Assembly (NCBI GenBank): GCA_945875545.1
Contig: CAMCKZ010000009.1
Coordinates: 1 to 58,321 of the forward strand
DNA length: 58,321 nt
DNA from: Polyangium aurulentum
GTDB lineage: Bacteria; Myxococcota_A; Polyangia; Polyangiales; Polyangiaceae
Direction: 5' to 3'
Shown here one piece after another: positions 21,301 through 40,549 of this stretch (within the stretch, counting starts at the first letter, position 1; each line of letters opens with the position of its first letter). The position numbers and the translations under genes are program-made. Under the pieces are notes generated by a model that saw only the letters and a list, made by a program, of their open reading frames with translations, was not told the origin of the DNA and did not search any database.

Positions 21301-21467
21301 CGTTTGGTTACGAGCGCATCGAGGCCATGGTGCGGGGCCATGCGGGAACCCCTCAAGACCTCGCGGATGCCCTTGGGCAGGCCGTGAAGGCCTACTCAGC
21401 GTCTCCGGAGCTCGCAGACGACGTTACCATCCTCGTGGTCGACCTGGGCCGCCCAGCGCCCGTCTAG
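18312..21467 (+). CDS. Reg_prop/Y_Y_Y sensor with SpoIIE-type PP2C phosphatase
   Basis: 1051 aa from the GTG at 18312, chosen because it opens a signal peptide (FAARRCLQRTSLVVLAACLVAG); the open frame runs 97 codons further upstream and overlaps the opposite-strand glutaredoxin-like gene. A two-component-regulator beta-propeller fills about residues 45-640 (repeated W[LV]GTxxGLxR units such as MWLGTEGGLVRF and LWIGTAGGGLQR). A Y_Y_Y domain (about 660-740), one membrane helix, a short coiled coil and a SpoIIE/PP2C phosphatase (about 820-1045) follow, with metal-binding VGGDLVDAF, MADTTGHGVQAAL, IFSDGLFEQ and ADDVTILVV all intact. It probably senses a periplasmic ligand and dephosphorylates an anti-sigma-antagonist-type protein inside. 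Its TAG stop lies in the left end of an intergenic repeat. Confidence 0.9.
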   Translation: MPRISFAARRCLQRTSLVVLAACLVAGPAGAVDPGLSFDQYATRTWTQNDGLPQNSILCIVQTPDGYMWLGTEGGLVRFDGVKLTTFDRTNQRALRSPNITALGVDPAGVLWVGTNAGLYRMIGETLESTPLSTSAAAGSGGVTSLSFLGADVIAGTDAGLFRSRNGSAQRLDIPGAQDQQVTATTVAGDHVLVGTPAGLFQIDGDALRNVTAERGLPFREVSSLYTLRDGSVMAGGRGQFARLGAAAAVYGASEGVPPVSVAAFLEDRQGTVWVASDGGGLLRLAGQRLERFAARDGIADDHVKSLFEDEQNGLWIGTAGGGLQRAFSGVAVTYGVLHGLSSTDVRSVYRARRGDLWVGTEGGGAFRSEGSAYVHDARISANTIYGFLEGEGEQIYAFSREQGVLVVPPNKAEAAVTLAGTEGLRVRSAILGPDGTPEWLGTHGHGLLRRQGARYVPAFPEVILPGALVFFVQKAGDEVVVGTRAGLFRINEAGARRDEGHIGADTSVLDRRVDSLGNEWISTSAGIVWRRGGEETVIDARAGLIDEQVYATAEQPVGTIWAATNRGVVRILRADAEAFASGRARDVSPRVFGLQDGFRSLESNAGSPSVLSDGPSSVWFGTTAGLTRLDAVRLQRTSSPPAPHLEDVAIDRVRQPTRAHLAYQSGRHDLSLVFTAFDYAAAGSIRFQHRLEGLDNGWIDDGLRRDANYTDLRPGTYRFRIRACSIDGACADTKTPLTIVVEPRWFERRSVWATAIAAVLMAVWALGRARLRGLRERARELELRVNERTAELREAMKSIEAKDLLVRQDIEEAARFQAVALRMNLVTPALGTGLCSMPAALVGGDLVDAFELSDGHFRFFMADTTGHGVQAALRTMVLKTEYEGAKWNHEFPNQLLESVNEILVINFTDLELRSTAICFDLVLARDGSWEFRFSNAAAPEIFLHAGDSVSEIYEPGPFIGMMAGAKFQLRHRTLPAGARLVIFSDGLFEQDGTDGPFGYERIEAMVRGHAGTPQDLADALGQAVKAYSASPELADDVTILVVDLGRPAPV

Positions 21468-21593
21468 GTGGACGCTGGGAAACGCGGAACCGCCCCAAAT
21501 CGTCGCTTCGGCTCGTCGAAATACGACAAGTATTCCTGCCTCGCCCTGCACTAGCTTTGGGAGCGTCCGCGTTTCCCAGCACACTCCTAGACG
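21461..21593 (+). repeat. ERIC-like intergenic element, copy 1
   Basis: About 133 bp bounded by imperfect terminal inverted repeats. The left end is CGTCTAGG, five bases, then GCTGGGAAACGCGGA; the right end is its reverse complement (TCCGCGTTTCCCAGC, a short spacer, CCTAGACG). An inner pair, GCCCCAAATCG and AGCTTTGGGAGC, and a small central stem GTCG-AAATA-CGAC, add further dyad structure. A second copy lies at 31383-31531 on the other strand. The element contains the phosphatase stop codon and ends one base before the prepilin peptidase ATG, so any transcript across both genes would carry it as an RNA hairpin. Confidence 0.85.
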
Positions 21594-22589: not shown

Positions 22590-23975
22590 TCAAGGGAGCG
22601 GAATGGCCCGCTCGGCCCACGAGCGAAGGCTGGCGCACGATGAACCCGAGGTTGGCAGCTGCCCGCCCGAGAACGACGCCGGCCCCGCCAGCACCACCAG
22701 TTCGCGGGGCGACGCGGCCCATGCCAAGGGCCCCACATTGGGCCGTTCAACGCAGTGAAAAAGAGCACTTGGGCGAGGCCGACCAAACCGCATTTGAAAG
22801 CTCTTTTCGAGATGCCTCGCTAGCCGCTGGGCCGTTGGGCCCGCGTCCGCATCCCAGCGAATACGCATGCGAAGCGCGCGTTCGTCGCCCCGCGCAAAAA
22901 GTTCCATACGACCATTTTCCCATGCGCCGGCGTGGGACTCCGCGACCTCGCAAGCCACGAACGCGCCGAGCCAATCGCGCACGTCGAGTTCACCCACCGT
23001 ATGGGCACTCGCGAGCGAAAAGTCTTTGGGGCCAACGGGGTCGCCGACGAGCGGCACGGGCCCTTCGTGCGTTACGTATTTGCCGTGGTGAAGAAGTTGC
23101 TCGGTGGTCACCGGTGGATCCCTCCACGCCGCATTCACCGCATCCCATCCGCCTCGAACATACAGGCGCCATACGAACCGCATTCCGTCCACATATGGGC
23201 TGACGAGGGAGTCGGCGATAGACCGGGGCACCTTGCCCTCCAAAATCTGCCGGTTCGTCTCCATCATGCCCGTGGTAAAATCAGCAATAAACCTGTCTGA
23301 AAGCTCACGGTGGCCGCCCCCGTCGAGGAGCATCGCGAGGGTCGCGTCGCCTTCCGCAAGCGCGTGGGCCGCGGCGGTTTGGTCGGTGCTCTCGGCGCGC
23401 CAACGAACGCGTTCGCCAAGATCGAAGTGCTCATCTTGGAGCGCATGAACCATTTCGTGAACGAGAAGAGCGTGCTCCTCGGGCGATCCGCGGGGGTCGT
23501 CGTCGACGACGTAAAGGGTTCGCGCGAGCGGCGAATAAAGCCCCGCCACTTGCGCGCTCACCATGCCCACCACCATCTCCTCGTAGTCCGCGGCCGGTGC
23601 GACGAGTGACAACAGTTTTTGTTCCGTCGCTTCGTTCCGAATGGCTTCTTGGGGAATGGCCGCCAACTCTTTGCGCACGATCGCGCCCATGCGCGTTCGG
23701 TCCACGTGCTCCGACCCAAACGCGCGCCGAGACGGCAGGCCCCGCACCCGAACAGCCGACGCCAACGCCAAGCTCAGAGCACGGTCGCTGGGCGAGATGA
23801 CCGCAGCCGAAACGACTGGGAAATTGCTGCTATTTTGAATTTCGGGTGGCATCTGCGCGGGAGCGTCAACCGCCGAAGATGGGGCACCGGCGGGCAACAA
23901 ATTGCGGCACCCCACGAGCAACAGCACGCCGGCGTAGGATCGCCAGCGGACGGGCGTCACCTCGCCTCGGCGCAC
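22590..23975 (-). CDS. lipoprotein with HExxH zinc-peptidase motif
   Basis: 461 aa. A lipobox is visible (SYAGVLLLVGC, Cys about residue 23), followed by a Pro/Ala linker. Near residues 160-205 are ALLVHEMVHALQDEHFDL and, 30 residues on, AAHALAEGDATLAML; HExxH plus a downstream Glu is the gluzincin layout, so an envelope-anchored metalloprotease is likely. The C-terminal half (to residue 461) is mixed alpha/beta without known motifs. Its start overlaps the end of rpe by 19 bp on the same strand, implying co-transcription. The 60 bp before the convergent prepilin peptidase contain an iterated palindrome at 22534. Confidence 0.82.
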   Translation of the reverse strand: MRRGEVTPVRWRSYAGVLLLVGCRNLLPAGAPSSAVDAPAQMPPEIQNSSNFPVVSAAVISPSDRALSLALASAVRVRGLPSRRAFGSEHVDRTRMGAIVRKELAAIPQEAIRNEATEQKLLSLVAPAADYEEMVVGMVSAQVAGLYSPLARTLYVVDDDPRGSPEEHALLVHEMVHALQDEHFDLGERVRWRAESTDQTAAAHALAEGDATLAMLLDGGGHRELSDRFIADFTTGMMETNRQILEGKVPRSIADSLVSPYVDGMRFVWRLYVRGGWDAVNAAWRDPPVTTEQLLHHGKYVTHEGPVPLVGDPVGPKDFSLASAHTVGELDVRDWLGAFVACEVAESHAGAWENGRMELFARGDERALRMRIRWDADAGPTAQRLARHLEKSFQMRFGRPRPSALFHCVERPNVGPLAWAASPRELVVLAGPASFSGGQLPTSGSSCASLRSWAERAIPLP

Positions 23976-24628
23976 GCGCGTCTTAGGCCATCGATCGCGA
24001 GCTTGTAGTCGGGGGCGCGAAAAATCGCGTTGCCCGCCACAAAAATGTCCGCACCCGCGGCCGCTATTTGGGCGGCCGTATCGGGCACAATTCCCCCGTC
24101 GACTTCGATCAAAGTCTCAAGCCCGAGGTGATCGATCATGGCGCGGACGCGGCGCACTTTTGGCACCGTTTGGGGGATGAAGCGCTGCCCTCCGAACCCC
24201 GGGTTGACACTCATAAGCAGTACGACGTCGCACAGATGCAGCACGTACTCGAGGCAACTTTCGTGGGTGCCCGGATTCAGCACAACACCAGCTTTTTTGC
24301 CCAGCGAACGAATCTGTTCGAGACTGCGATGAAGGTGCGGACAGGCCTCCGCATGAACAGTGATGATGTCGGCACCCGCCTTCGCAAACGCCTCCACGTA
24401 CTTCTCCGGTTCCACGATCATCAAGTGCACATCGATGGGCTTGCTCGTCGCTTTTCGGACGGCCTCGACAACGATCGGCCCGAGGGTGATGTTGGGAACA
24501 AATCGCCCGTCCATCACGTCGACGTGAATCCAGTCGGCACCCGCGGCGTCAACGGCCATCACGTCGCTCGCGAGGGCACCGAAGTTGGCAGACAGAATCG
24601 ACGGAGCAATGAAAATGGTGCGCGCCAT
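23957..24628 (-). CDS. rpe: ribulose-phosphate 3-epimerase
   Basis: 223 aa from the ATG at 24628, which matches the conserved family N-terminus (IAPSILSANFGAL); the longer open frame upstream is non-homologous. The TIM-barrel motifs are all present: HVDVMDGRFVPNITLG (metal His/Asp), VHLMIVEP, LLMSVNPGFGGQRF and IEVDGGI. It interconverts ribulose-5-phosphate and xylulose-5-phosphate in the pentose phosphate pathway. A terminator-like hairpin with a T-run lies in its leader (24667-24701), which could attenuate transcription. Confidence 0.96.
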   Translation of the reverse strand: MARTIFIAPSILSANFGALASDVMAVDAAGADWIHVDVMDGRFVPNITLGPIVVEAVRKATSKPIDVHLMIVEPEKYVEAFAKAGADIITVHAEACPHLHRSLEQIRSLGKKAGVVLNPGTHESCLEYVLHLCDVVLLMSVNPGFGGQRFIPQTVPKVRRVRAMIDHLGLETLIEVDGGIVPDTAAQIAAAGADIFVAGNAIFRAPDYKLAIDGLRRACAEAR

Positions 24629-24666
24629 TGCCCATGGCTCGTGCAGTGCGCATCGCCGCGCAAGAC

Positions 24667-24701
24667 AAAAAAAGGAGAACACGCAATGTGTTCGCGTTCT
24701 C
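24667..24701 (-). terminator. terminator-like hairpin in the rpe leader (putative attenuator)
   Basis: Read on the minus strand, GAGAAC, a spacer containing GAACAC-ATTGC-GTGTTC, and GTTCTC can form either a nested long stem or a perfect 6-bp inner stem. Both end beside a run of seven T (24673-24667). It is located 40-70 bases upstream of the rpe start, with no minus-strand gene before it, so it would act on rpe's own leader. No leader peptide or ligand-binding fold was recognised. Confidence 0.5.
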
Positions 24702-24741
24702 GGAGCTCCCCAGGGTAAGGGCCGGGTGCTAAGAAACACGT

Positions 24742-25218
24742 GTGACCTATGCAACCCGGCGCATCACCAAAGGCGACTTTGATCGCATCGTCGCTGTCAT
24801 TGATCACTGGTGGGGCGGGCCGCTCAGCACGCTCGCTCACCCCATCTTTTTTTACGAGCTCGGTCGTTACGCGCGCATCGTCGTCGACCACGAAGACGAA
24901 TTGGTCGGTTTTTTGCTGGGGTTCGTTTCGGAGGAGGGTGAACGCACCGGTTACGTGCACCTCGTCGGCATCAACCCCGACCATCGTCGGCGCGGCGTCG
25001 CCCGCACGTTGTACAAAGAGTTCCAGCGCGATTGTTTCAACGACGGCTGCCTCCAGATGAAGGCCATCACCACGCCGGGCAACGAGCCGTCCATTCGGTT
25101 TCACGAGGCGCTCGGCTGGGGTTTCGAGGAGGTCGATGGTTATGCGGGGCCTGGCCGGCGCCGCGTCGTGTTTACCAAGGCCTTGACAGCCCTCAGCGCG
25201 GGCATGAGGGCCGTATGA
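24742..25218 (+). CDS. GNAT family N-acetyltransferase
   Basis: 158 aa from the GTG at 24742. The GNAT fold is shown by the beta4-alpha3 acetyl-CoA loop VHLVGINPDHRRRGVARTLYKEF (R-R-x-G-x-A type) and by the C-terminal GNEPSIRFHEALGWGFEE, where N and F-x-x-x-G-[FW] are typical. The substrate is unknown. The stop codon overlaps the ATG of the cyclic-nucleotide-binding gene (ATGA), so the pair is translationally coupled. A link to cAMP-controlled protein acetylation, as in mycobacterial Pat, is suggested only by this neighbourhood. Confidence 0.9.
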   Translation: MTYATRRITKGDFDRIVAVIDHWWGGPLSTLAHPIFFYELGRYARIVVDHEDELVGFLLGFVSEEGERTGYVHLVGINPDHRRRGVARTLYKEFQRDCFNDGCLQMKAITTPGNEPSIRFHEALGWGFEEVDGYAGPGRRRVVFTKALTALSAGMRAV

Positions 25219-25757
25219 TCGCATGCGTCGACACGCCGTTCCCACGGGCGCCGAAAGAAGACTTGGCCACGGTCGATGAGCTTCGCGATTGCGCGCTGTG
25301 TGGTGGCCTCGACGACAACGCGCTGAGGTGGCTCACGCAACACGTTGAGCGCCTGGAGCTTGGGCCGGGGACAATTATTTTTCGCGAAGGAGAGGCCGCG
25401 CGGGAATTTTACCTGGTTCTGGAGGGCGACGTCGAGATCTGGAAGCGCCCCGCCACCGCGGAAAACGCGCTGGATCTCGGCGAGTGCATCAACATGATCC
25501 ACGCGAAAAGTATTGTCGGTGGGTCCTCGGTGATCGACATGCAGGGCCGTTTGGCGACGGCCCGCGCGGCGACGCCGGTGGTGCTGTTGCGCGTCTCGTG
25601 TCGGGCCATGACGGCGCTCTATCGCGAAGATTTGAAGAGCTACACGATGGTCATTTTGAACGTGGCGCGCGACCTCAGTCGACGCCTTCGGGTCGTGAAT
25701 ACCCTCGCGGCAAGCCTCTCGGCTCAGGCGCGCGGTGGGCCTCACACGCACGATTGA
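25215..25757 (+). CDS. stand-alone cyclic-nucleotide-binding domain protein
   Basis: 180 aa from the ATG at 25215. Residues 25-150 form a Crp/Fnr-type cNMP-binding beta-barrel (LRDCALCGGLDDNALRWL, GTIIFREGEAAREFYLVLEGDVEIWK, VGGSSVIDMQGRLATARAATPVVLLRVS). The phosphate-binding cassette, normally GE[LIV]...RxA, is degenerate (GGSSVIDMQGRLATARA), so nucleotide binding is uncertain. No DNA-binding helix-turn-helix follows; the C-terminus is a short helix. It may act as a regulatory subunit for the overlapping GNAT enzyme. Confidence 0.87.
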   Translation: MIACVDTPFPRAPKEDLATVDELRDCALCGGLDDNALRWLTQHVERLELGPGTIIFREGEAAREFYLVLEGDVEIWKRPATAENALDLGECINMIHAKSIVGGSSVIDMQGRLATARAATPVVLLRVSCRAMTALYREDLKSYTMVILNVARDLSRRLRVVNTLAASLSAQARGGPHTHD

Positions 25758-25867
25758 CGCCATCCCATCCCTCGTGCTAAGCTGCGCATCAAGTGGGCGG
25801 ATTCTACCGCCTGACGGGAATGCGGGAATAAACGGGTAGCCTGAGCGTTCCCGAACGTAAGGACGCA

Positions 25868-27271
25868 ATGGCAATGGCAATGGCGACGGCGAAAAAGAAG
25901 GCGACCGCACTCAAGGCGGGTTCCAAGGCGGCATCGGCTGCATCCAAGAGCCCTAAAAACGTCAAAGACGTTAAGGCTAAGTCGGTTGCCAAAGTGGCCA
26001 AGGCTTCCGCCAAGAAACCGGCCCCCCTGCCTGTCAAGAAGGCTGTCAAGAAGGCTGTTAATCCGGCAAAACCGGTGAAGTCCACGAAGCCCACAAAGCC
26101 TGCCAAAACGGTGAAACCTGCCAAAAAGGCGCTGAAGGCCGTTAAGTCTGCCAAAACTGTTAAACCCGCGAAGTCGGTGCCAGCGGTTAAAGGCGTCAAA
26201 GCTGTTAAGCCCGCGAAGTCGGTGCCAGCGGTTAAAGGCGTCAAAGCTGTTAAGCCCGCGAAGTCGGTGCCAGCGGTTAAAGGCGTTAAAGCTGTTAAAC
26301 CCGCGAAGTCGGTGCCAGCGGTTAAAGGCGTTAAAGCTGTTACACCCGCGAAGTCGGTGCCAGCGGTTAAAGGCGTTAAAGCTGTTAAACCCGCGATGTC
26401 GGTGCCAGCGGTTAAAGGCGTTAAAGCTGTTACACCCGCGAAATCGGTGCCCGCGGTTAAAGGCGTTAAGCCCGCGAAATCGGTGCCCGCTGTTAAAGCT
26501 GTTAAACCCGCGAAATCGGTGCCCGCTGTTAAAGGGGTTAAACCCGCGAAATCGGTGCCCGCGGTTAAAACGCTGCCAGCGATTCCCGTCGCCGCGCCGA
26601 CCAAAACGCGACCGCCAGCGGCCGCAATCGCGCCAGTTAAGCCCGCCTCCAGCGCGTCGGTCGCGGTGGCCAAGAAATCCCGCAAGTCGTTGCCCGCGGT
26701 GCCGCCCAGCCGAAAATCGGTTTCGCGCCTACCCACGCTGCGAAGCTTGGTGCCGGCCGCGGTGGCGGCAGCCCAGCTTGAACCCGTGACGTTCAAACTC
26801 CACGACCTCGCGGTTCATCCGAGCCACGGCGTCGGAGAGGTCGTCGCCATCGAACAAAAGACGATCGGCGGCGCAGCACCCACGGAGTTTTACGTACTGC
26901 TTGTGCAGGGCGGCTCCAAGGTCATCGTGCCGGTCAGGTCCGCGCAGGGCGTGGGTCTGCGGCGGGTGATGAGCGCGCCAGAAGCCGACGCCATCCTCGA
27001 CACGATTCGCAGCAAAGAGGTCGCCGTGAAGGTCGAGCCTTGGTCGCGCCGATTCCGTATTTACCAAGAAATGGTGAAAAGTAAGTCGCTGAACGAGGTC
27101 GCCAAAGTGATGCGCGACATGCACCGTTTGCGCGGGAGCAAGAATCTTTCCTTTGGTGAGCAGAATCTCCTTGACAAAGCCAAGGGCCTCCTTTTGCGGG
27201 AGCTTTCGGTCGCCAAGCGAATCACCGAGCAGGAGCTCGAAGGTCAAATCGAAGCCGCGCTCGCGAGCTAG
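25868..27271 (+). CDS. histone-H1-like tail fused to a CarD/CdnL-type domain
   Basis: 467 aa from the ATG at 25868 (AAGGA upstream). Residues 1 to about 300 are a Lys/Ala/Pro/Val-only basic tail, with seven 15-residue repeats of the type KPAKSVPAVKGVKAV, resembling histone H1 and other AKP-rich DNA-binding tails. Residues about 307-467 match the CarD_CdnL_TRCF family: LAVHPSHGVGEVVAIEQKTIGG, YVLLVQGGSKVIVPV, then the helical part with WSRRFRIYQEMVKSKSLNEVAKVMRDMHRL and LSFGEQNLLDKAKGLLLREL. CarD-family domains bind the RNA polymerase beta subunit. Myxococcus CarD has a CdnL-like N-terminus and an HMGA-like C-terminus; here the basic tail is N-terminal and H1-like. Likely a nucleoid-linked transcription factor. 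Confidence 0.88.
   Translation: MAMAMATAKKKATALKAGSKAASAASKSPKNVKDVKAKSVAKVAKASAKKPAPLPVKKAVKKAVNPAKPVKSTKPTKPAKTVKPAKKALKAVKSAKTVKPAKSVPAVKGVKAVKPAKSVPAVKGVKAVKPAKSVPAVKGVKAVKPAKSVPAVKGVKAVTPAKSVPAVKGVKAVKPAMSVPAVKGVKAVTPAKSVPAVKGVKPAKSVPAVKAVKPAKSVPAVKGVKPAKSVPAVKTLPAIPVAAPTKTRPPAAAIAPVKPASSASVAVAKKSRKSLPAVPPSRKSVSRLPTLRSLVPAAVAAAQLEPVTFKLHDLAVHPSHGVGEVVAIEQKTIGGAAPTEFYVLLVQGGSKVIVPVRSAQGVGLRRVMSAPEADAILDTIRSKEVAVKVEPWSRRFRIYQEMVKSKSLNEVAKVMRDMHRLRGSKNLSFGEQNLLDKAKGLLLRELSVAKRITEQELEGQIEAALAS
26159..26570 (+). repeat. in-frame 45-bp tandem repeats within the CarD-type gene
   Basis: Seven near-identical 45-bp units begin at 26159, 26204, 26249, 26294, 26339, 26384 and 26429, each starting GTTAAACCC or GTTACACCC. 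Shorter 27-36 bp derivatives follow to about 26570. The near-identity at the DNA level points to recent expansion or ongoing homogenisation, so repeat number probably varies between strains. The antisense strand stays open through the repeats, producing a spurious long ORF. Confidence 0.95.
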
Positions 27272-31382: not shown

Positions 31383-31531
31383 GGGCCTCTGGAAGTGTGC
31401 TGGGAAACGCGAACGCTCCCAAAGCTAGGACAGGCGGAGGTAGGCCTGGTTTAGAAAAGATGGCGTCGTATTTCGACGACGCCAACCGACGATTTGGGGC
31501 GGCCCTCCGGTTGCCAGCATCGACCTAGGCG
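31383..31531 (-). repeat. ERIC-like intergenic element, copy 2
   Basis: Reverse-complement copy of the 21461-21593 element, about 149 bp. On the minus strand it runs CGCCTAGGTCGATGCTGGC..., then a shared core (GCCCCAAATCGTCGG, TCGTCGAAATACGAC), a divergent middle, then CTAGCTTTGGGAGCG and CGCGTTTCCCAGCACACT. Its left terminal repeat is more degenerate than in copy 1. As in copy 1, the upstream gene's TAG stop lies in the CCTAGG of the left end, and the downstream gene's ATG follows the right end directly. Confidence 0.85.
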
Positions 31532-32238
31532 CTCGCTGCGTAGTAGATGAGCCGCTGGCAGGACGGGCACTGCTCGACGAGGCCCTCGCGCCGCAGTTTT
31601 TGAAAAAACGTCGGAGGCAAGGCCATCTGGCATGAGTCGCAACGGCCCGCGAAGGCACGCGCCAACGCGTTTCCGCGGCGTTCACGCACTTGCTCGTATT
31701 TGCGAAACAGCGGCACAGGAAGCTGCGCCTCGATGGCCTGCCGTTCGCCAAGCTTCGCGGTTCGCTCCGTATTGGCCTCGCCAGCCGTGGACGCGTAGCG
31801 GCCGCCGTCTCCGGAGAGTTCGGCGTCGAGGACGCGTTCACGCTCCTCGAGGACCTCGAATTCGGCGCTGATGCTCGCGAGCACCGTCGATTGATGTTCG
31901 AGCTCGACGCGTTTGTCGCGCGTGAGGCGAAGCAGGTCTTCTCGCTCGCTTTCCGCCGTCTGGACGTCGGCTAGTTTGTGTACGCGAAACTGGCGATCGC
32001 GCGCCACCTCGGTCTGCCGCGCGAGGCCCCGAAGGTCTTCGTCGAGAGCACGAAGTTTGCCCGTTTCTTCGGTGCGGCGAGCGGTGATGGAATCGCGGAC
32101 GGTGCCAATGGACGTGCGCTCACCGGCAATTTTTTTCAGTCGGCCGTCGGAACTGGCGAGGGTGGCGTCAAGGGTGATGATGGAGTCGTCGACGGCCGCG
32201 AGCGCTTGCAGGAGAACAATCGTTGGAGACGCGCTCAT
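31525..32238 (-). CDS. coiled-coil protein with C4-type zinc ribbon
   Basis: 237 aa. Residues 1-185 are a long charged coiled-coil hairpin (many Glu/Arg/Leu heptads), and the C-terminus is the C4 zinc ribbon (GRCDSCQMALPP...EQCPSCQRLIYY) typical of the zf-RING_7/DUF164 family. Members are widespread and often sit by RNA-processing or tRNA-linked genes, but their function is not settled. A tRNA gene lies 20 bp upstream on the same strand, and the kinase lies downstream after the ERIC-like element. Confidence 0.9.
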   Translation of the reverse strand: MSASPTIVLLQALAAVDDSIITLDATLASSDGRLKKIAGERTSIGTVRDSITARRTEETGKLRALDEDLRGLARQTEVARDRQFRVHKLADVQTAESEREDLLRLTRDKRVELEHQSTVLASISAEFEVLEERERVLDAELSGDGGRYASTAGEANTERTAKLGERQAIEAQLPVPLFRKYEQVRERRGNALARAFAGRCDSCQMALPPTFFQKLRREGLVEQCPSCQRLIYYAASA

Positions 32239-36076: not shown

Positions 36077-38773
36077 TTACGGGTCGAGCAAGAGGCCCAG
36101 GGGCAAATCGTCGCTGCCCGCCTCGATGCGCGACGCCAGCGACGGAGCTGCCCCATGGGTGATGGCGTCGAGCGCCGAGACCGCCGCCGGACTTGACGGC
36201 AACCCCCGCAGGCGATCGATCAGGCGGGCGCGCATCGCCTGGCTCACGTCGCGGCGCAGGTCGCCGGTGAGCCGCGCCATCCGCCCAACGGCGTCGATCC
36301 ATGCATTCTGCACGGACCAGTTTTCCCGCAACGCAAGCTCGCACCAACGCTCCACGACGAGAGAGGGCAGCGCCTGATCGTGGCCCGCCGGAAACGGCTC
36401 TCGCTCACCGACGAGCCCCAAACATCGGGACCAATGGGCCGCCGTCTCACCCGCCATGCAGCGATCAAAGATGGCGTCGCCGAGCACGGCCCGCCGCCTC
36501 GGCTCCACGCGATCAAGATGCCCGCACAGCTCCGCAAGCGATGCGTCGAACGCGTGTGGGCAAGCTTTTTTCTGCCGTTTCACCGTTAGCGCGAGTTCAC
36601 CCCGCTCAAACAAGAGCCCCTGCCGCCGCGCGTCGAGACCGAGGGAGACCCGCCGCCAAGCGTGAAAGTAGGCCTCCCACACGCGGGCCTCCTGCGCGTG
36701 GAGAACCCGATCTTGCTCCAAACGAAAGAGTCGGTCGATGCGCTCATCGTCGCCGTTTGCGCCGGTTCCGGGGCGCAATGTAAAACCCACGACCTGCCAA
36801 AATACGCGTTCATGATCCGCCGTGCTTCGCCGCCCTTTGGCGCGCTCGGTGACCACGTCACAGAGAGCTCGGCAGAGAGATATCGACCACGTTTTACGGG
36901 GACCAAAGCGGCCCTCGAGGGTTCGCCACAGGTCCTTGGCGGCGCGCTCGGTGCCGTCGCCAGCCGACCGGGGAAATGCGTCGTTTATGAGCGAAAGTGC
37001 TGCCTCTACGCCGCGTACAACCCCCGGGTCGAGGCGGGCCTGGCGCACCTTTCGGAGCGTGCGGGCCCGGGTCTCAAAGGTGCAAAAAAGGGGCTGCGCC
37101 ATGTGCGGCGATACGCATGTAAGATGCACGCATCCGAGCTCGTCGAGCCTGACGGTCACAGCGACCGGAACCGTCGCCGACGACGCGGACGGCACGGCCA
37201 CGACGAGCGCCGGCAGCGCATCGACCTCTTGTTGAAGCTCGTCGGCCAGAGCCCCGAGGGGAACCGAAACACCATCGGTCCACGCCAATTCGAACCGCGC
37301 CCGTTCGCCCGTGCGCAACGCGAGGTCGTCGATGGGAAGTGCGGTATTTTCGTTTTCTGGCGAGCCACTCGGCAGCACGCAGACGTACGACGGGCGGCCG
37401 TCGTTGCCATCGACGCGAAGAAACAGATTTCGCGTTACCTTGCCGCGAAGCAGGGATTTTCCTACGAAAAGCGCGCGCGCGTGGGACGCCGCACCGAGGG
37501 CCACCGCGACGTCGCCCGCGTCTCCCGTAAGAATTCCTGCCACGGCCACGCCAAACGCTTCAAGGGCGACAGCGATGCGCTGCCCGAGGACGGGAGGCTT
37601 CAGGGTTCCGCCGTTGGGCAAAACGAAGAGCGGACCATCGAGGAGTGCCCGGTGCCGATCCACGAACTCGAAGGCGTGCCTCGTGATGGCCACATCGCGC
37701 TCGTAGCTCAAACCAAAACCCAAGAACGCGCTCCTCGCGGGCTTCGGAGTGAGCTCGTGGGGCAATGGAAAAAACTCGTGTAGAACGCATGCATTCACGA
37801 GCTCACGGGTGACCTCTCCGGTGCGCAAGCCTCCGATGAGTTTGCTTCCGGGCAGCACCACGCGAATATCAACCGCCGCGAGGGACTCGTCACCGAGGAG
37901 ATTTTCTTTGGCCCGCCGGCACTCGCTCACGAGCGACGAAAACGCACGAGGCCCAATATTTCGCAGGGTTTCATGCGTTTCACTGACGCGATGGGCGAGC
38001 GCGAGGTCGATGTTGTCTCCGCCTAGAAGCAGGTGACGGCCTGTGGCAATCCGCTCAAAGACGTGCGCTTGCGAACCGCTGTTCAGGACGCGCACCAGGG
38101 CAAAGTCGCTCGTCCCACCGCCGATGTCGGCCACGAGCACGAGGGCCGACCCCTTGGCCGCCACGGTCTCGCGAAGCGCCGGCGAAAGCTCGGCAGCCCC
38201 GTGAAGCAGGGCCGCGGTGGGCTCCTCAAGGAGCGTTGCCAGCGGTGCCAACGCGCGCGCAGCGGTCAATACAAGCTCGCGCGCGAAGGGATCAAACGAC
38301 GCCGGAATGGTGACGACCACCGCCTGGTCCGCGAACGGCGCATCCGAATGCGCGCTGTTCCATGCAGTCTGCATGGTTCGTAGAATCAGCGACTGAGCCT
38401 CGGTCGGTGAAATCGAGGCGGCAGCTGCGCTCTCCAAGTCGAGGTCCGTCGCGAGGGGCAAAAACGCCGAGGTGCGGTCCACACGCGGCTCCGTGAGCCA
38501 GCTCTTCGACGACGCGACCACGCGTTCAGGAGCCGTTGCATGCATATTTCGTGCAAATACGCCCACATCCCAAGCCTTGGCCTCTTCGTGAAAAAGCAGA
38601 AATGAGGGGAGCAAGCTCCGAGCCTCGTAGTGGTCCTCGGCGATTCTTTGGCGCACGGGCACGACCTCGGGCACCTCGAAACCCGCGATGGCGACCGCGG
38701 CCAGCACGCTGTGCGTGGTGCCGAGATCGATGCCGATGCCGTAGGTTGCGGAGCGCTGGGCCGGGCGTGTCAT
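36077..38773 (-). CDS. Hsp70-family protein with DUF3731-type C-terminus
   Basis: 898 aa. The N-terminal half is an Hsp70/actin-fold ATPase: GIDLGTTHSVLAAV, VVVTIPASFDPFARELVLTAA, LLEEPTAALLHG, VADIGGGTSDFALV and LLLGGDNIDLALA. The substrate-binding-domain region is divergent. The last roughly 320 residues are helical (RKTWSISLCRALCDVV, RRRAVLGDAIFDRC, SWCLG-like and LALRENWSVQNAWIDAVGRMARLTGD) and match the DUF3731 extension of this Hsp70 branch. It is the third gene of a DUF2760-Hsp70-Hsp70 module, starting 6 bp after its partner's stop. A chaperone role is inferred. Confidence 0.9.
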   Translation of the reverse strand: MTRPAQRSATYGIGIDLGTTHSVLAAVAIAGFEVPEVVPVRQRIAEDHYEARSLLPSFLLFHEEAKAWDVGVFARNMHATAPERVVASSKSWLTEPRVDRTSAFLPLATDLDLESAAAASISPTEAQSLILRTMQTAWNSAHSDAPFADQAVVVTIPASFDPFARELVLTAARALAPLATLLEEPTAALLHGAAELSPALRETVAAKGSALVLVADIGGGTSDFALVRVLNSGSQAHVFERIATGRHLLLGGDNIDLALAHRVSETHETLRNIGPRAFSSLVSECRRAKENLLGDESLAAVDIRVVLPGSKLIGGLRTGEVTRELVNACVLHEFFPLPHELTPKPARSAFLGFGLSYERDVAITRHAFEFVDRHRALLDGPLFVLPNGGTLKPPVLGQRIAVALEAFGVAVAGILTGDAGDVAVALGAASHARALFVGKSLLRGKVTRNLFLRVDGNDGRPSYVCVLPSGSPENENTALPIDDLALRTGERARFELAWTDGVSVPLGALADELQQEVDALPALVVAVPSASSATVPVAVTVRLDELGCVHLTCVSPHMAQPLFCTFETRARTLRKVRQARLDPGVVRGVEAALSLINDAFPRSAGDGTERAAKDLWRTLEGRFGPRKTWSISLCRALCDVVTERAKGRRSTADHERVFWQVVGFTLRPGTGANGDDERIDRLFRLEQDRVLHAQEARVWEAYFHAWRRVSLGLDARRQGLLFERGELALTVKRQKKACPHAFDASLAELCGHLDRVEPRRRAVLGDAIFDRCMAGETAAHWSRCLGLVGEREPFPAGHDQALPSLVVERWCELALRENWSVQNAWIDAVGRMARLTGDLRRDVSQAMRARLIDRLRGLPSSPAAVSALDAITHGAAPSLASRIEAGSDDLPLGLLLDP

Positions 38774-38779
38774 CGGGGA

Positions 38780-40549
38780 TTAGAAGGCCTCTCGCAACGC
38801 GAGGTCCACCTGAAATTCCTCGCCGGTGCCGGTCTTGACCCGCAGGATAAGCGCGCCCTGTTCGGTGACCTCGCTCGAAAGGCGAGCGGCCACGACCTCA
38901 CCGGCGGCGATGGAAGTGGATGTAAACTGCAAGTGAATGGGTGCCAGTTCCACGAGGTCGTCTTTGCCCTCGCGGTGGTCGAACATCGCCGCGAGGGCGT
39001 CCTGTTTGCGCGACGACGAAACGAAAAAACGAAGGAGCACGGCCTCGCCAACGATGACGCCGAGGGAGTCGGTGGGCAGCTCCACACGCGCACCGTCTTC
39101 CATTCCTTGGGGGGCAATGCAGAGTGCATGTATAGGCGGTTCCACCCCAGGAATTGCAGGAAGCGCGCCTTCGACCCCCACGTAATAACTGAGCACGGTG
39201 GCGCCCCGTATACGAATGCCGCGCCCCGCTTTGGCCTTGGCAAATACGGCGGCACCTCGGCACACCCCCAATTCCAAATCTTCGCCCGGCAGAACGCGAG
39301 GCGCGGGCGCGCCGAGAGCGGTCGCCCACGATTCAAGCAGCTCAATCACGCGACGACGCAGGCGTTCCGCTTTGAACACGCCCCCATTGAAAAGCACCGC
39401 CGTCGGCATGCGCGATGCGCCCTCGCCGTGGGCCCCCAAGAAGGCTGCGAGATGGCGCGAAATCGCCGAGTCGTTTGCATACGGCAGGCCGACCTGCGCA
39501 AGCCCTGAACGCACGCGTTGCTGGGCCCGACTGCCCACGGGAACCATTGGAAAAAAGCCTTCAACCGCGAGGTTGTGAACCTCGTCGCGCGTGAGTTCGG
39601 TGCGCCACGTGGCGCCAAAAAGTTTGGAGCCGCGACCCGCAAGGGCGATGGGGGCCGCATCCGGCGCGGCCTCCGCCAAGAGACCTTCTTTGGCCGTGCG
39701 CGCGAGCCCCATGAGGGCCGCAAACTGCGCCGCGTCGAGGGACTTTCCCTGCTCTTCGAACTTCGTCCGCGCGAGATGCGCGAGGGCCAAATCCATGTTG
39801 TCGCCGCCTAGGAGCAAGTGGTCGCCGACGGACATGCGGTCGAGAACGAGCTGCCCCTGGTCTTCGGAGACACCCAAAAGGCTGAAGTCGGTCGTGCCTC
39901 CGCCCACATCCACGACGAGCACGCGATCGCCGACGCGAAGTTGTTTTCGCCAGCGTTCTCCCTGACGATCCATCCACGCATAAAAGGCCGCTTGCGGCTC
40001 TTCGAGGAGGGTCACCACCGCAAGCCCCGCATCGCGCGCGGCCTCGAGGGTCAGTTCGCGCGCCGCCGCATCGAACGACGCGGGTACCGTCACGACCACA
40101 TCTTGTTCCCCCAAAGCCGACCCTTCGGCTGCCCGCCAGGCCTCGGAAAGATGCGTGAAGACTGCCGTCGCCGCGGCCACGGGCGATATCTTTTTCACGC
40201 CCTCGTAGGCGCTAATGGGCAAGAGGTTTGATCGCCTGTCGATGGACCGATGAACGAGCCAACTCTTGCTACTCGCGACCACGCGGCCGGGCTGAGACGC
40301 GAGCTCTTGGCGAGCCAATTCCCCAATAGAATGAGGAGTTTGACCCCAAGGAAAGTCGTCGCCATCGCGGTCGCCTTCGCCCGCGCTCAAGCGAATAACG
40401 CTGGGCAACAGCCATCGCGCTTCAACGAGGTCGCGAGCCACGCGCTGGGGAATGGCGAAGGGCCCCACGCTCGCTTCTTCGCCATCGCGGGCAAACGACA
40501 GTGACGTATGCGTAGTACCTAGATCTATACCAACGAAAGCCCGTACCAT
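38780..40549 (-). CDS. Hsp70-family chaperone of the DUF2760 module
   Basis: 589 aa. The ATPase motifs are VGIDLGTTHTSLSFA, VVVTVPASFDAAARELTLEAARDAGL, LLEEPQAAFYAW, VVDVGGGTTDFSLLGV and LLLGGDNMDLALAHL. A beta-rich substrate-binding-like part covers about residues 470-589, shorter than DnaK and with no clear lid. It is distinct from housekeeping DnaK; no DnaJ or GrpE gene is adjacent. The ATG at 40549 overlaps the DUF2760 stop (TAATG), so the two are translationally coupled. Three iterated palindromes lie near or inside it (38920 and 39117 within). Confidence 0.92.
   Translation of the reverse strand: MVRAFVGIDLGTTHTSLSFARDGEEASVGPFAIPQRVARDLVEARWLLPSVIRLSAGEGDRDGDDFPWGQTPHSIGELARQELASQPGRVVASSKSWLVHRSIDRRSNLLPISAYEGVKKISPVAAATAVFTHLSEAWRAAEGSALGEQDVVVTVPASFDAAARELTLEAARDAGLAVVTLLEEPQAAFYAWMDRQGERWRKQLRVGDRVLVVDVGGGTTDFSLLGVSEDQGQLVLDRMSVGDHLLLGGDNMDLALAHLARTKFEEQGKSLDAAQFAALMGLARTAKEGLLAEAAPDAAPIALAGRGSKLFGATWRTELTRDEVHNLAVEGFFPMVPVGSRAQQRVRSGLAQVGLPYANDSAISRHLAAFLGAHGEGASRMPTAVLFNGGVFKAERLRRRVIELLESWATALGAPAPRVLPGEDLELGVCRGAAVFAKAKAGRGIRIRGATVLSYYVGVEGALPAIPGVEPPIHALCIAPQGMEDGARVELPTDSLGVIVGEAVLLRFFVSSSRKQDALAAMFDHREGKDDLVELAPIHLQFTSTSIAAGEVVAARLSSEVTEQGALILRVKTGTGEEFQVDLALREAF

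Follow-up and report, generated by a model that had tools for sequence, protein, structure and literature searches.

In Myxococcus xanthus, the essential protein CdnL binds the β subunit of RNA polymerase (RNAP) through its RNAP interaction domain (RID), requires R90, R91, and R93 for stabilization of the open promoter complex, and does not itself bind DNA in vitro (PMC4182748). DNA binding belongs instead to a separate protein, CarD, the activity of which is raised by its DNA-binding tail (PMC4374960). CarD and its partner CarG have been reported only from the Cystobacterineae, where the CarD proteins of Anaeromyxobacter dehalogenans and Vulgatibacter incomptus join an RNAP-binding CarD module to a C-terminal histone H1-like domain rich in Lys, Ala, and Pro (PMC9304148). 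These CarD proteins coexist with CdnL. CarD tails reportedly act by DNA binding, with tails of the H1 and HMGA types being interchangeable in this protein (Garcia-Heras 2009, cited in PMC4374960 and PMC9304148). Mycobacterium CarD and Caulobacter CdnL, neither of which is known to have a long basic N-terminal tail, also belong to the CarD/CdnL family.

Here we analyze a window of 58,321 nucleotides from Polyangium aurulentum (Polyangiales; contig CAMCKZ010000009.1 of assembly GCA_945875545.1). It encodes a protein with the same combination of parts in the opposite order, in a lineage reported to be without CarD and CarG, and this tailed form is the only CdnL found in two genera (Table 1). What appears new relative to the described systems is the N-terminal order, the existence of a Polyangiales paralogue group, and, in two genera, the replacement of canonical CdnL; among the papers searched, none was found to describe an N-tailed CdnL in Polyangiales. 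The protein offers a natural test of two questions: what contribution an H1-like tail makes to an RNAP cofactor, and whether linkage between RNAP and nucleoid DNA arose more than once.

Table 1. Features of the tailed cdnL locus (window coordinates)
Feature	Position	Strand	Basis or remark
Neighboring block: hypothetical protein (−), rpe (−), GNAT (+), cNMP-binding protein (+)	22590..25757	.	near canonical cdnL in several relatives
Promoter-like element TTGACG-N18-TAAGCT, TG before it	25754..25783	+	conserved in three congeneric genomes
Small leader hairpin GGCGG-ATTCTA-CCGCC, 5' of start codon	25796..25811	+	stem kept in congeners
CDS, N-tailed CdnL-type protein, 467 aa	25868..27271	+	single open frame
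N-terminal cap MATAKKKA	25880..25903	+	identical in 3/3 congeners
Six 45-bp repeats coding [KM]SVPAVKGVKAV[KT]PA	26171..26440	+	repeat analysis
12-residue repeats KSVPAVK(G/A)VKPA, final unit incomplete	26441..26572	+	repeat analysis
Basic junction motif KKSRKSxPAVPPSRKSVSRLPTLRSLV, residues 269–295	26672..26752	+	congener alignment
CarD_TRCF RNA polymerase interaction domain (RID)	26792..26968	+	Pfam PF02559, fold
CarD C-terminal helical domain, W392 and R394/R395/R397	26993..27250	+	Pfam PF21095

The first-pass annotation had recognized a full CarD-family domain behind the tail, and profile searches bear this out. The C-terminal 165 residues form a complete CarD module, in which the RID (residues 309–367) scores 42.4 bits against a cut-off of 23, and the CarD_C domain (residues 376–461) scores 73.4 bits against a cut-off of 23.1. 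CarD_C directly follows the RID and no helicase is present, which places the protein with CarD/CdnL rather than with TRCF/Mfd; Mfd is encoded by a separate gene of the same genome (contig C78). Among solved structures, M. xanthus CdnL (2lwj, E = 1.5e-36) is the closest relative, and a structure model of moderate confidence (pLDDT 66) has its best fold matches among CarD/CdnL structures, including Mtb CarD, whereas prediction of the full-length structure was poor because the alignment had three rows. The basic patch is retained, W392 and R394/R395/R397 being equivalent to W88 and R90/R91/R93 of M. xanthus CdnL, and so is the equivalent of F125. Among the residues contacting RNAP β, P51 is kept, M49 is replaced by Ile, and alignments differ in placing F341 or E340 at the position of F36. 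Like M. xanthus CdnL, which has no tail, the protein has a two-domain module and presumably stabilizes σA open complexes.

The RID is 40% identical to that of M. xanthus CdnL and 32% identical to that of CarD, the latter comparison being restricted to the 63-residue CarD RID (identical letter for letter to PDB 2lt1) because the sampled phylum yielded no close CarD from which to take a full-length sequence. As the first-pass annotation had proposed, the order is reversed compared to myxobacterial CarD, with the tail at the N-terminus and the CarD_C match ending at residue 461 of 467. Its further claim that the type of tail is also different does not stand, since an H1-like tail is already present in the CarD proteins of Anaeromyxobacter and Vulgatibacter (PMC9304148), from which the window protein differs in its N-terminal tail, in ending with CarD_C, and in being the sole CdnL-type protein of its genome, a point that the first-pass annotation had not made. 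The equal set of parts, an RNAP module plus an H1/HMGA-like tail, could be taken to mean that the protein is a Myxococcus-type CarD, that is, a CarG-dependent ECF-σ regulator, in which the DNA-binding part has switched ends. We consider this already disfavored explanation hardly credible in view of the lower RID identity to CarD, the reported confinement of CarD and CarG to the Cystobacterineae (PMC9304148), and the tailed group's own syntenic locus within the family (see below). Moreover, the window genome and two congeneric genomes have no M54-type CarG candidate and no match to PF07998, a model that may not detect CarG. Because of its closer resemblance to CdnL and the reported distribution of CarD/CarG, we classify the protein as a CdnL-type paralogue, and not as a CarD with its parts swapped.

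A search for the same architecture in relatives, which the first-pass annotation had suggested, returned 20 readable tailed cases within the family. CarD_C matches from 79 relatives were extracted for a domain tree, and a focused tree was also computed. Three groups emerge in the trees: canonical CdnL, which includes M. xanthus CdnL (100/99), a short sister group, and a tailed group. A single branch (89/86; present in 92% of bootstrap trees) sets the 20 rows of the tailed group apart. Each of the 20 readable tails is basic, with a length of 83–346 residues and a net charge of +11 to +72, while the N-terminal extensions of the short groups are mostly shorter than 20 residues and carry little net charge. 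In other families, the long frames preceding canonical CdnL are rich in Arg and Gly, poor in Lys, and mostly have an ATG at the domain border, and are therefore not tails. In other genera, tailed and short paralogues occupy one common locus close to HU/IHF and tyrS, with a gene for a PduO-type cobalamin adenosyltransferase downstream in several of them (names assigned by sequence inspection). Phylogeny and composition thus point to a CdnL paralogue group with basic N-terminal tails across the Polyangiales family, to which we assign the window protein. Outside the tailed group, a CdnL from another family of the order (L090, genome G065) has a Lys-rich N-terminal tail of 173 residues, probably a second, separate gain.

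Relatives normally retain a short canonical cdnL as well, located after an OmpA-like gene and ppx/gppA (again named by sequence inspection). In the window genome (G000), by contrast, the RID occurs in two genes only, those for Mfd and the tailed protein. With M. xanthus CdnL as the query, only the tailed gene is matched in G000, in its two freshwater congeners from samples of other lakes (G001 and G002, with loci L033 and L034, respectively), and in G013, whereas G035 has both forms. In G360, which belongs to the genus of G013, a single tailed gene is the only one. The gene directly after ppx in G000 and G002 encodes an acyl-CoA dehydrogenase-like protein; in G013, what follows ppx is part of the gene normally found beyond cdnL. 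Neither a canonical cdnL nor a remnant was detected in the ppx neighborhood of these three genomes. As no canonical gene was found and the contigs read through its usual site, the tailed paralogue appears to be the only CdnL-type protein in the window genus and in one other genus. In two further genomes of the family (G027, L061; G026, L062), the tailed paralogue is accompanied by a canonical CdnL that has diverged strongly and sits on a long branch; these genomes may show the replacement of the window genus at an earlier stage.

The sole remaining gene might alternatively be the canonical cdnL itself, diverged in place and furnished with a tail, rather than a paralogue that took over. Indeed, the gene adjoins the rpe-GNAT-cNMP block, which in several relatives has canonical cdnL in its vicinity, and an AU test does not reject grouping of the genus with the canonical CdnL clade (p = 0.31), although the tree alone is not decisive on this placement because the genus branch is long. 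However, at 31 diagnostic sites the window genus has the paralogue state 24 times, the canonical state once, and other states six times. Furthermore, the gene carries the tail of the paralogue group, is not next to ppx, and differs from canonical cdnL in orientation and immediate neighbors. The window genus retains HU/IHF and tyrS at the tyrS locus but has no tailed gene there, as expected after a move. Divergence in place, already disfavored, is accordingly very unlikely, and takeover by the paralogue is the reading we retain. In the window, two inverted copies of a palindromic, MITE-like intergenic repeat (21454–21591 and 31388–31538, with arms around GCTGGGAAACGCGGA...TCCGCGTTTCCCAGC) flank a 9.8-kb block containing the tailed gene; the repeat has a very stable predicted fold (z −6.0), and a third copy (93%) lies on the ppx-bearing contig (L200:1328–1463).

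The tail comprises the first ~304 residues, in agreement with the earlier estimate of about 300 residues rich in Lys, Ala, Pro, and Val (K 22%, A 22%, V 17%, P 13%), and has a net charge of +72. It is histone H1-like in composition, being K/A/P-rich and highly basic with almost no acidic residues, and used as a query against its own genome it retrieved no second similar tail. It is probably disordered, as suggested by the lack of predicted structure and low pLDDT, a weak sign given the shallow alignment. The first-pass description of a tail built from 15-residue repeats applies only in part: six such units exist, but regular repeats are confined to about residues 102–235 and include the 12-residue units, the rest being degenerate K/A/P sequence. 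Near-identity of the repeats at the DNA level, also claimed, was confirmed, as the six full 45-bp copies differ at three codon columns only (TRF reports seven copies with 95% matches). The copy number is uncertain, since miscounting may occur in a metagenome-assembled genome (MAG) when an array is longer than typical short reads. An assembly artefact as the origin of the tail was considered and rejected, as gene and tail are present in three MAGs, the two congeners carrying them beside the same rpe-GNAT-cNMP neighbors. Likewise rejected was a spurious upstream frame, given the conserved MATAKKKA start preceded by an RBS-like GAGGA/AAGGA and the net-basic tails throughout the family.

Comparison of the congeners indicates which properties of the tail are maintained. 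Their cores are ~90% identical, whereas the tails of the other two proteins are 154 and 221 residues long and have unrelated repeats, in line with the first-pass suspicion that tail length may vary between strains. Charge density is nevertheless 0.25, 0.24, and 0.24 per residue in the three proteins, acidic residues are almost absent, and the 27-residue junction directly before the RID has a single variable position. The simplest reading is that selection acts on the composition of the tail and on both of its ends, while its middle varies freely. Alternatively, the tail could be a nearly neutral low-complexity expansion without dedicated function on an ordinary CdnL module, as suggested by the wholly different middle repeats, the unstable copy number, and the fact that the short sister and canonical proteins manage without a tail. 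We regard this as unlikely, as it does not sit well with the net positive charge of 20/20 readable tails, the constant charge density and near-absence of Asp and Glu within the genus, the invariant start, and the near-invariant junction.

We propose that the tailed paralogue, as the sole CdnL of its genus, probably does the job of CdnL, while the tail would add nonspecific DNA binding. Following loss of canonical cdnL, the N-tailed paralogue would have been left as the only CdnL; judging from homology and conserved residues, its RID would bind the RNAP β lobe and its C-terminal helical domain would stabilize the open promoter complex. The probably disordered, basic tail may bind DNA nonspecifically, whether close to the promoter or along the nucleoid, and so raise the local occupancy of RNAP with its cofactor. 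By analogy with CarD, we infer that the tail supplies DNA affinity to an otherwise non-DNA-binding CdnL, and this suggests that the holding of DNA and the start of transcription are combined in a single protein, making a coupling of nucleoid binding to RNAP contact plausible. More tentatively, the canonical form may have been replaced in at least two genera by a DNA-tethered, H1-tailed CdnL, so that one protein would serve both open-complex stabilization at housekeeping promoters and nonspecific nucleoid binding, and a rapidly changing repeat array would determine the length of its tail.

The tail may also have polyphosphate or RNA as its partner. Polyphosphate granules can be a site of action for H1-like K/A/P proteins, as in the case of AlgP of Pseudomonas, which shares the Lys/Ala/Pro-rich repeated tail but is not fused to an RNAP-binding module (PMC9239181). 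In addition, canonical cdnL adjoins a Ppx/GppA-like phosphatase gene in relatives (named by sequence inspection), although this concerns a different locus. CarD tails of like composition, moreover, reportedly act through DNA binding. That the tail binds such another polyanion, or serves chiefly in phase separation or regulation, is in our judgment quite unlikely, and DNA binding remains the preferred role.

At the 5' end of the gene, the starts of the orthologues align with the ATG at 25880 and not with that at 25868, and the two ATGs ahead of the former look like the result of a GCAATG duplication. The stem of the leader hairpin is kept in the congeners, one pair changing from G-C to G-U as read from the alignment. 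The conserved element upstream of it may function as a promoter, a status that we infer because a scan with the σ70 consensus does not call it. An antisense frame of 330 codons (25804–26796, minus strand) is open across the tail repeats and is probably a by-product of the repeat codons. Elsewhere in the window, two adjacent HSP70-like genes lie on the minus strand (36077–40549), the first of which has a DUF3731 (DNA-K related protein) domain.
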